Source of the DNA: an uncultured bacterium
GTDB taxonomy: Bacteria; DRYD01
NCBI GenBank assembly: GCA_937139605.1
Contig: CAKZQG010000004.1
Span: 1 to 64,000 of the forward strand
Reading direction: 5' to 3'
DNA: 64,000 nucleotides
Position 1 is the stretch's first letter; every line of letters begins with the position of its first letter. This document shows, piece after piece, positions 13,629 to 60,497 of the stretch. The notes beneath the pieces were generated by a model. The model was not told the origin of the DNA, searched no databases, and saw only the letters and a list, made by a program, of their open reading frames with translations. The translations under genes and the position numbers were made by a program.

Positions 13629-14230
13629 TTACAAAATTTCATTATTTTTCATTTTACTTTTCTGTAAATAATTGATCCCTTTTTCGGTTATCTCCCATAT
13701 TCCATAAGGAGAATTTTTATTTAAAAGTCCTTGAATAACCATATCATTTCTTGCCCATTTAGCATTATTTCGCCACCTTGGCTCACCATTTGATTCTAAT
13801 TCATCTAAATCCCTACTAGTTAATTTATCTTTAACTTTTAGATAAACTTTTTCCAGTATTTTTCTTACTTTTGCTTTACCTCCCAATTCTAATAACACTT
13901 CTAAAATTGGAATTATATACTCATTTTTTGGGGTTATTCTATTTTCTTTTTCTTTTTTTAATAATAAATATTCATTAACATTTTCATTAATATTTTTATT
14001 TTCAATTAAACCATTTTGAAAAAATAATTTATTATATTCTTGTTGAATTTCTTCAATTTTTTTATAAACTCTATTAATTTTCCTATTTTTTCATTAATAT
14101 TTTCTAACTGTAAATGATTTTTATTTTCTATATTTAGAGACATATATTCATTTAATGACTTAATATTTTCTTTAAATATTTCAATTAATATTTCAAAAGC
14201 TATATTTACTTCATCTTGTTTTATGAGCAA
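13629..14230 (-). pseudogene. Coiled-coil plus Mrr N-terminal winged-helix protein, interrupted in an A7 tract
   Basis: Two overlapping frames make one gene. Frame one starts at TTG 14230 behind a strong GGAGGTG and runs through a coiled coil to IEFIKK. At an A7 tract near 14057-14063 the product continues only in the next frame: IEEIQQEYNK, then a helical linker, then IPILEVLLELGGKAKVRK and EPRWRNNAKWARN...GIWEITEKG. The last part is the classic Mrr_N winged-helix pattern. With one extra A the span is 603 bases, exactly 200 codons plus stop. Read as annotated, only an 89-residue winged helix and a 74-residue fragment would be made. It could be a true pseudogene, transcriptional slippage or a sequence error. 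Confidence 0.75.
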
Positions 14231-16524: not shown

Positions 16525-17330
16525 TTATTGTTTGTAATTTTTTAAATTAAGTTTTATAATAAATAATTCAAGCAATACTTTAAATATAAATTTAATAGTT
16601 TTAAAAATGTTAAAAGTAGAATATTTTTCAGTATGTTTATCAAAAATAGGAAAAATATTATAAATTTTAAAATTATTAAATACCGCATATAACAGTAATT
16701 CCAATTGAATTAAAGAAGTATTAGATAAAAAATTTTTGTCTTTAATAAAATAAAAGAACTTATTATTAAAAGCTTTAAATCCGCCAACAAAATCATCAAT
16801 CCCTTTTATTTTTCTAAAGAATAATATTTTAATAATATAAATTAAAGTTTTATGCATAATTTTTCTAAAAAATGATACATCATAAGAATCTTTTAACTTA
16901 GTTCTATCAATATTAATCAAATCATAATGCATTAGTTTATCTATTGATAAATCGATAATAGACAATTCAAAAGGTAGATCAAAATCCATTATAAAGAAGA
17001 GATTATTTTTATTAATAAACATAGGCTTATTATAAATATTTTTTAATTTACTAAGTGCAAACTTAATAGCATAACCTGTCCCCCTATTCTTATCATAACT
17101 AAAATAATAAATAAAAATCTTGGTATTATTTAATTTAAAGTTAGCATAATATTTTTTTAAAAATGATTTTAAAATTTCTAAAGTTTTATCAGTACTCCCA
17201 TCATTAATAATAAAAATAAAAAAAAAATATCTTTATATAAAATATTATTGAGATAACTAATTAATTTATCCAAAGAAGAATAGATAATATTTTCTGAATT
17301 ATAAACAGGTAATATAAAAATTAAATTCAT
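16525..17330 (-). pseudogene. Family 2 glycosyltransferase interrupted at a T10 tract
   Basis: A GT2 protein is encoded in two frames. ATG 17330 (MNLIFILPVYNSENIIYSSL) reads as a standard GT2 N-terminus until a run of ten T on the coding strand (near 17218-17227). The continuation IINDGSTDKT, then DKNRGTGYAIKFAL, then FFIMDFDLPF (DxD-like metal/UDP site) lies in the next frame and joins the 165-residue ORF ending at 16525. Adding one T gives 807 bases, 268 codons plus stop, with all GT2 motifs in order. It is most like dolichyl-phosphate-type transferases. It starts 5 bp after glyS stops. Slippage, decay and sequence error are all possible. Confidence 0.75.
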
Positions 17331-59338: not shown

Positions 59339-59766
59339 TTAAACATGTTTTTTAACATTAATAAAGATAAAATGATTTTTAGCAAATTCTTTTAATCTAT
59401 TAATATTATTTAATTTAAAGCAATTTCTAAAATTTTTTTTAAAATTATAAACAAGAATCTTATTTATAAATCGTTTTATATAATTTCTTTTATTAGATTT
59501 CCCTATTTTTTTAGAAATAGAGATAGTATAATAAAGGAATATTGCGTTTTTATACTTAAAAAAATCTGCTTTAAAAACATCTAAATTAGGAATATCTGGA
59601 ACCTTAAAAATTATAAAACTAAATAATAAATAATCTTTGATTTTTTTTAAATATATTTTCTTTTTTAATTTAAATAATACAATAGAATTAGAATTACTAA
59701 AAAAAAATCTATCTGCTTAGTAGATAGATTTTTAATATAAAATTTACTATCAATTTTAAATTTCAT
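59339..59766 (-). pseudogene. rnpA: RNase P protein component, frame broken at a T9 tract
   Basis: Two frames from ATG 59766 build one RnpA. Frame one reads KFKIDSKFYIKNLSTKQIDF and closes after about 33 residues. After a T9 run (59699-59707) the other frame reads TISISKKIGKSNKRNYIKRF, the RnpA signature (SVSKKVG...RNRIKR), and on to TAA at 59339. One extra T gives 429 bases, 142 codons plus stop. Directly 5' of the T run a perfect stem AAAATCTATCT / AGATAGATTTT with a 7-base loop is followed by T9, like an intrinsic terminator. RnpA is normally essential, so full-length product is probably made by slippage, or a base is missing in the sequence. It lies 2 bp after the ICMT-like gene. Confidence 0.8.
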
Positions 59767-59768
59767 AA

Positions 59769-60497
59769 CTAAATTTTAATTATATTTGATTTTAATAAAA
59801 TAGTGATATACAATAATATAATAAAGAACCAAGTCCAGGGCTCAGTTTTAATAACTGGTAAGAATCTAAATCTCCCATATTCCTTTTCTAAGGGTTTAAA
59901 ATTTATCAGCCACTTAGGAACAGCTTTTTTATATTCTATATACTTATCCTTAAATTTAGATTCAAGGAATTCTTCTTCAGCAGGGATAACAAAATAATTA
60001 TAATAAAGTATATAGTAAAGGGTAGTAAAAATAGCAGCTAATAATGAGTAAAGTATGCCATATTCCCCAGTAGCTAAAATAGAGAATCCCAAAGCAATAA
60101 AAGTATTAGCAATATAAACAGGGTTCCTAGAATATCGGTATGGTCCAGTAGTTATTAAATTAGCTATCATAGGTTCTTCTCCCCTACTCTTAACCCCTAA
60201 ATACCCTAAACATATAACCCTTAAAACAGAACCCAATATAATAAATATACTCCCAATTATAATTGATAAAACATTAGCTTTAGCTATAATCAAAAAAAAT
60301 ATAACCAAAGGTATAGGAAATAACGCCCTATATCTAAATCCAATTAAAGCAAAAAGATTCCTTTTTTTATCACTTTTTTTATCATCTTTTTTATCGTTAT
60401 TATATAACTTACTAGCTATTAAATTATCATTTACAGATTGATTAACATTATCAACTTGATTAACAAAATCTTTATCCTTTATATCTTCATTTTGCAT
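59769..60497 (-). CDS. ICMT/PEMT-type membrane methyltransferase
   Basis: 242 residues. Hydrophilic N-terminus (about 1-45, charged), then four or so transmembrane helices. GPYRYSRNPVYIANTFIALG and the E-rich motif VIPAEEEFLESKFKDKYIEY followed by YKKAVPKWL are typical of isoprenylcysteine-carboxyl- or phospholipid-methyltransferase-like proteins. Substrate unknown. Confidence 0.85.
   Translation of the reverse strand: MQNEDIKDKDFVNQVDNVNQSVNDNLIASKLYNNDKKDDKKSDKKRNLFALIGFRYRALFPIPLVIFFLIIAKANVLSIIIGSIFIILGSVLRVICLGYLGVKSRGEEPMIANLITTGPYRYSRNPVYIANTFIALGFSILATGEYGILYSLLAAIFTTLYYILYYNYFVIPAEEEFLESKFKDKYIEYKKAVPKWLINFKPLEKEYGRFRFLPVIKTEPWTWFFIILLYITILLKSNIIKI

Follow-up and report, generated by a model that had tools for sequence, protein, structure and literature searches.

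How does a bacterium obtain the protein of its RNase P if the gene for it, rnpA, is divided between two reading frames? This question is raised by a locus in the 64,000-nucleotide stretch of DNA analysed here (the window; Table 1). The break may be an error of the assembly, a sign of decay or part of the way in which the gene is expressed. The analysed genome (G000) was compared with the other species of its genus (G001), a genome of another genus (G004) and a genome of the same order (G006).

Table 1. Positions in the window of the split genes, their T runs and neighbouring features
Feature	Position	Strand	Basis or remark
rnpA, RNase P protein gene in two frames	59339..59766	minus	ORFs and same split in G001
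rnpA 5' ORF in frame 0, with a stop after 22 conserved and 11 unconserved residues	59665..59766	minus	ORF and alignment
rnpA 3' part, -1 frame, 122 codons, without start codon	59339..59707	minus	translation
rnpA putative slip site T9; zero-frame codons GAT TTT TTT TTA	59699..59707	minus	exactly T9; G001 also T9
Hairpin, 12 bp, overlapping five Ts of T9	59703..59733	minus	rnpA of this species only
Isoprenylcysteine-methyltransferase-like membrane protein, upstream neighbour of rnpA, also in G001	59769..60497	minus	named from sequence
GT2 glycosyltransferase gene, in frame 0 for 34 codons and in frame -1 for 230	16525..17330	minus	within window; split
GT2 putative slip site T10	17218..17227	minus	run read in both species; T10 in G001 too

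The rnpA start codon, an ATG, lies 2 bases past the stop of the methyltransferase-like gene. The 33-aa ORF that it opens translates as MKFKIDSKFYIKNLSTKQIDFF followed by LVILILLYYLN and a stop. The -1 frame reads FFFSNSNSIVLFK...ISISKKIGKSNKRNYIKRFINK...FIFINVKKHV and a stop, and ATG, GTG and TTG are all absent from it. One extra T at the run joins the two frames. The preliminary description of this DNA had reported RnpA motifs across two frames that meet at T9 with a deficit of one base, and had proposed a recoding which in effect adds that base. Both are supported. The -1 frame contains KRNYIKR (the RN..KR motif of RnpA), and the presence of the same break in G001 speaks against chance.

The protein reads as a diverged RnpA. 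Compared with Pfam PF00825, the -1 frame reaches an E value of 2e-4 and 21.8 bits, just under the cut-off of 22.3, and a Pfam scan picked up no rnpA in G000 or G001. In a profile-to-profile comparison with the RnpA of relatives (four genomes of the same family and one of the same order), the joined protein is aligned from residue 1 with an E value of 8e-7. The AlphaFold model of the -1 part was too poor to use (pLDDT 43.6). RNase P RNA (RF00010) scores above cut-off in both species, and a second rnpA copy was not found elsewhere in the G000 genome. In genomes of the same family rnpA is found in a single frame of 113-118 aa at another location, behind tsaD. In G006 (L035, 2173-3402) a single ORF of 409 aa, followed by yidD, yidC and jag, apparently combines RnpA with a methyltransferase-like domain.

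In G001 rnpA has the same neighbour gene and lacks one base at the same T9, which makes an assembly slip at this gene very unlikely. The joined RnpA proteins of the two species share 58% identity. A contig scan returned the contig of G001 (JAPYWL010000067.1) and distant methyltransferases, nothing else.

Long A/T runs at frame junctions were scanned over 1.69 Mb of the 1.88-Mb G000 genome. Five genes besides rnpA are broken at sense-T runs, each of them one base short. The total of six is a lower bound, as the codon-score filter of the survey missed rnpA and the Wzx-like gene, which were found separately. The genes for a Wzx-like flippase and a DUF58-like protein (a weak match, E 0.3) are broken at T9, and so is tilS, just 3' of its SGGPDS motif; run length and deficit are the same in G001 for all three. 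The fourth gene encodes a GT2 glycosyltransferase (Table 1), and its deficit, too, is the same in G001. The fifth, recF, is broken at T10 between the Walker A part and the remainder; its counterpart in G001 was matched from coordinates by open-frame length only, being 288 aa long from the same start point as compared to 366-379 aa in relatives. The names tilS and recF are our own reading of the sequences; second copies of either gene were likewise not found in G000. Wherever orthologues of the split genes were found in other genera they are in one frame, with the exception of tilS of G004 (L216), a single low-quality genome, which carries T11 at the same site as G000 and G001 and is broken in the opposite direction.

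Several candidates were discarded. On inspection mobA (A9) and several A7/A8 and T7/T8 candidates proved to be neighbouring genes or to have a start of their own; a kinase-like gene that carries C8 T9 is intact. Apart from the six, dnaX (G000:C37:114803-114812, outside the window) has an A10 near its 3' end and a 56-aa tail in the -1 frame; the tail is present right behind dnaX in G001 too (E 2.5e-6), which matches the arrangement of known dnaX slippage genes. A DpnII-like restriction gene (G000:C24:3976-3985, minus strand) has a break of the opposite direction (+1) at A10, and an LhgO-like FAD oxidoreductase gene (G000:C7:104516-104522, minus strand) has one of the -1 direction at T7 and then A6. 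Within the window, a winged-helix-like gene has a possible -1 break at A7 (14057-14063, minus strand); no orthologue was found in the part of G001 that was read. Between 24635 and 32357 lie several decayed AAA-ATPase/nuclease-like paralogues. They are interrupted by short palindromes, ATTTCATATAAC...GTTATA, which look like small mobile repeats. An ORF of repeated VISEPSGIE units in the region of G000:C36:13595 is probably a CRISPR array.

Selection evidently sees the joined proteins. For rnpA, tilS and the Wzx-like, DUF58-like and GT2 genes, the five whose sequences were read in G000 and G001 alike, mismatches between the two species at codon positions 1/2/3 number 77/47/118 in the frame-0 part that precedes the run and 287/165/462 in the part in frame -1 that follows it, and from this bias on both sides we conclude that the two frames are maintained as one protein. 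To the part before the run rnpA contributes only 19 codons, and the case there rests mainly on the other genes. The joint excess at third positions also bears on the view that rnpA is a decaying pseudogene and that RNase P either dispenses with its protein or uses a substitute for it. The divergence of RnpA to just below the Pfam cut-off would fit such decay. The -1 frame, however, is open over about 120 codons in both species with the identity and codon bias given above, and five further genes have the same pattern; we consider decay almost inconceivable.

The runs themselves are conserved as well. From G000 to G001 the run is still at least nine bases long in all five broken genes, as compared to none of ten nine-base runs within intact genes that could be traced into G001 (p 3e-4); since the genome is AT-rich, part of the TTT retention would be expected anyway. 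Coding DNA is depleted of runs of at least nine bases (p 1e-10 in G000, 0.01 in G001), which is also the case in genomes prone to slippage, and such depletion has been read as selection against slippage (PMC1088944). The broken genes combine protein-level constraint on both frames with a conserved A/T run, at least nine long, where the frames meet.

Could the missing bases still be undercalls, the true runs being T10 or T11 and one base having been lost in both assemblies? All six deficits amount to one base, which is the direction of homopolymer undercalling, and both G000 and G001 are draft MAGs that were judged from their assemblies. Run lengths, however, are identical in the two species; independent errors arriving at equal length five times are, as we read the sequences, not credible. 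Moreover, 6 of 30 sense-T runs of at least nine are broken as compared to 0 of 57 sense-A runs (p 0.001; p 0.018 with dnaX and the A10 restriction gene included among the broken; p 0.015 or 0.10 in the narrower test on runs of at least ten). Since sequencing error is blind to the sense strand, this bias counts against error. Intact runs of 10 and longer do occur, and frameshifts are nearly absent elsewhere: among 215 orthologues outside the set there were 3 frame-change signals, one of them at an N-terminus next to a tRNA-like end and the other two in multicopy genes that have decayed. Assembly error, named by the preliminary description as its own counter-case, is thus very unlikely, given the break in a second species and in five more genes.

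We therefore turn to expression. Very probably the cell makes the proteins of the split genes by RNA polymerase (or the ribosome) slipping on the run. According to the model that we favour and regard as likely, conserved transcriptional slippage that adds one U yields RnpA and the other proteins. In this model rnpA would be functional, its one-base deficit at T9 having become fixed. RNA polymerase would slip on the run and insert one extra U into part of the transcripts; slipped mRNA would be translated normally into full-length RnpA of about 142 aa, unslipped mRNA into the 33-aa peptide. The same one-base-short arrangement, common to both species, would serve tilS, recF and the Wzx-like, DUF58-like and GT2 genes. 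We infer both that the slip occurs in transcription rather than in translation and how efficient it is. Retention of runs of at least nine, depletion at exactly nine and the opposite-direction break of tilS in G004 argue for slippage. Precedents exist in Shigella mxiE (PMC1088944) and in endosymbionts with 12-50% corrected transcripts (PMC3017870, PMC5009743). Against it, slippage normally produces several run lengths, so its yield may be low, and all six breaks have one direction, as -1 ribosomal frameshifting also predicts.

Such frameshifting, a one-base slip back on U_UUU_UUU or U_UUU_UUA in the run with mRNA length unchanged, leads to the same product. A slippery zero-frame heptamer (X_XXY_YYZ) is present at all six T sites, every one of which needs a -1 shift, and U_UU.U_UU.U and U_UU.U_UU.C are among the heptamers that are prone to shift in E. 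coli without a stimulator (PMC4066793). The U_UUA tetramer is a poor shifter in E. coli (PMC4066793). No consistent downstream structure was found: z is 1.4 and 0.0 at rnpA, and only wzx of G000 (-2.3) and dnaX (-2.1) stand out. Seven Ts would suffice for frameshifting, yet nine or ten are kept, and it leaves unexplained both the depletion at exactly nine and the tilS break of G004. We regard it as unlikely, but as the strongest competitor of slippage.

Slippage of the replication machinery could alternatively switch the DNA between T9 (off) and T10 (on), the assemblies showing the off state. Long homopolymers mutate readily, and the Wzx-like and GT2 genes are surface genes, a kind that is subject to phase variation. 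Genes expected to be essential such as rnpA and tilS, however, cannot be off in the majority of cells, and the same off length in both species for every gene would be an improbable coincidence. Phase variation has, in our judgement, only a slim chance of being correct.

The preliminary description had further reported a perfect 11-bp stem directly before the T run, a layout described for stem-loop-stimulated slippage. The stem is real, with the arms AAAAATCTATCT and AGATAGATTTTT (59733-59703, -10.4 kcal/mol, z -5.1); it comprises 12 bp, and its 3' arm takes up five of the nine Ts rather than ending before them. The hairpin is not supported as the key signal. The fold at the rnpA T9 of G001 is weak and non-significant (z -0.4), and no significant upstream stem was found at the other sites. 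Being neither conserved nor more than weak or absent elsewhere, it was ruled out as a general signal. Stem-loop-stimulated slippage of the Roseiflexus IS type would require a stable stem, conserved and immediately 5' of the slip motif, whereas here a stem is present at rnpA of G000 only. The signal common to all slip sites is the T run. The rnpA hairpin, which is stable for its composition, may modulate slippage or end some transcripts in this species.

Under transcriptional slippage, the out-of-frame T9 or T10 might itself be a fixed and selected part of expression, by which slippage holds the output of RnpA, TilS, RecF and others at a low and possibly regulated level and the out-of-frame length is maintained across species. 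We put this forward tentatively, as a possibility that is less likely than not. These proteins are presumably of low abundance and able to bear a reduced output. The two sister species provide a setting in which to ask whether the broken state is under selection or reflects drift that is tolerated.

Genes of this type are missed by annotation or called pseudogenes. As the Pfam scan finds no rnpA in either species, claims of gene absence in AT-rich uncultured lineages may be wrong. Homopolymer slippage that rescues frameshifted core genes is already known from Buchnera and Blochmannia, where genes are frameshifted at poly(A)/poly(T) tracts and some breaks are shared between species (PMC3017870 and works cited there; PMC5009743). 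Judged from the open-access literature, what is new is the gene set, together with a poly(T) deficit that is uniform and has been conserved in a lineage that is flagellated and not reduced; no reports of tilS or rnpA slippage of this kind were found there. Slippage-dependent expression of core genes would thereby be extended beyond insect endosymbionts.

The genomes studied here resemble those of Buchnera and Blochmannia in being AT-rich and in having core genes that are out of frame at long homopolymers and otherwise intact. Those endosymbionts have reduced genomes of about 0.16-0.8 Mb, whereas the present genome has 1.88 Mb, with flagellar and respiratory genes in the window. Their tracts are mostly poly(A), whereas all six described here are sense poly(T) and one base short, and no gene was found here to be broken in one congener only. 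As in Shigella mxiE with its T9, a plasmid regulator (PMC1088944), rnpA has two overlapping ORFs that one base inserted at a U run would join; here, however, housekeeping genes are concerned. In dnaX slippage genes (Thermus; GeneTack cluster, PMC3711429) a homopolymer slip site, A9/A10, is likewise kept in evolution, and dnaX of G000 also has an A10 with a conserved -1-frame tail. Those dnaX genes give two useful products, whereas the unslipped products of the split genes look useless. Slippage that a stem-loop stimulates in a Roseiflexus IS (Penno 2015, described in PMC5009743) has in common with rnpA of G000 a hairpin beside the slip site; according to the same account it involves a GC stem and T5C5, as compared to the AU-rich stem that overlaps the run at one site only in the present genome.
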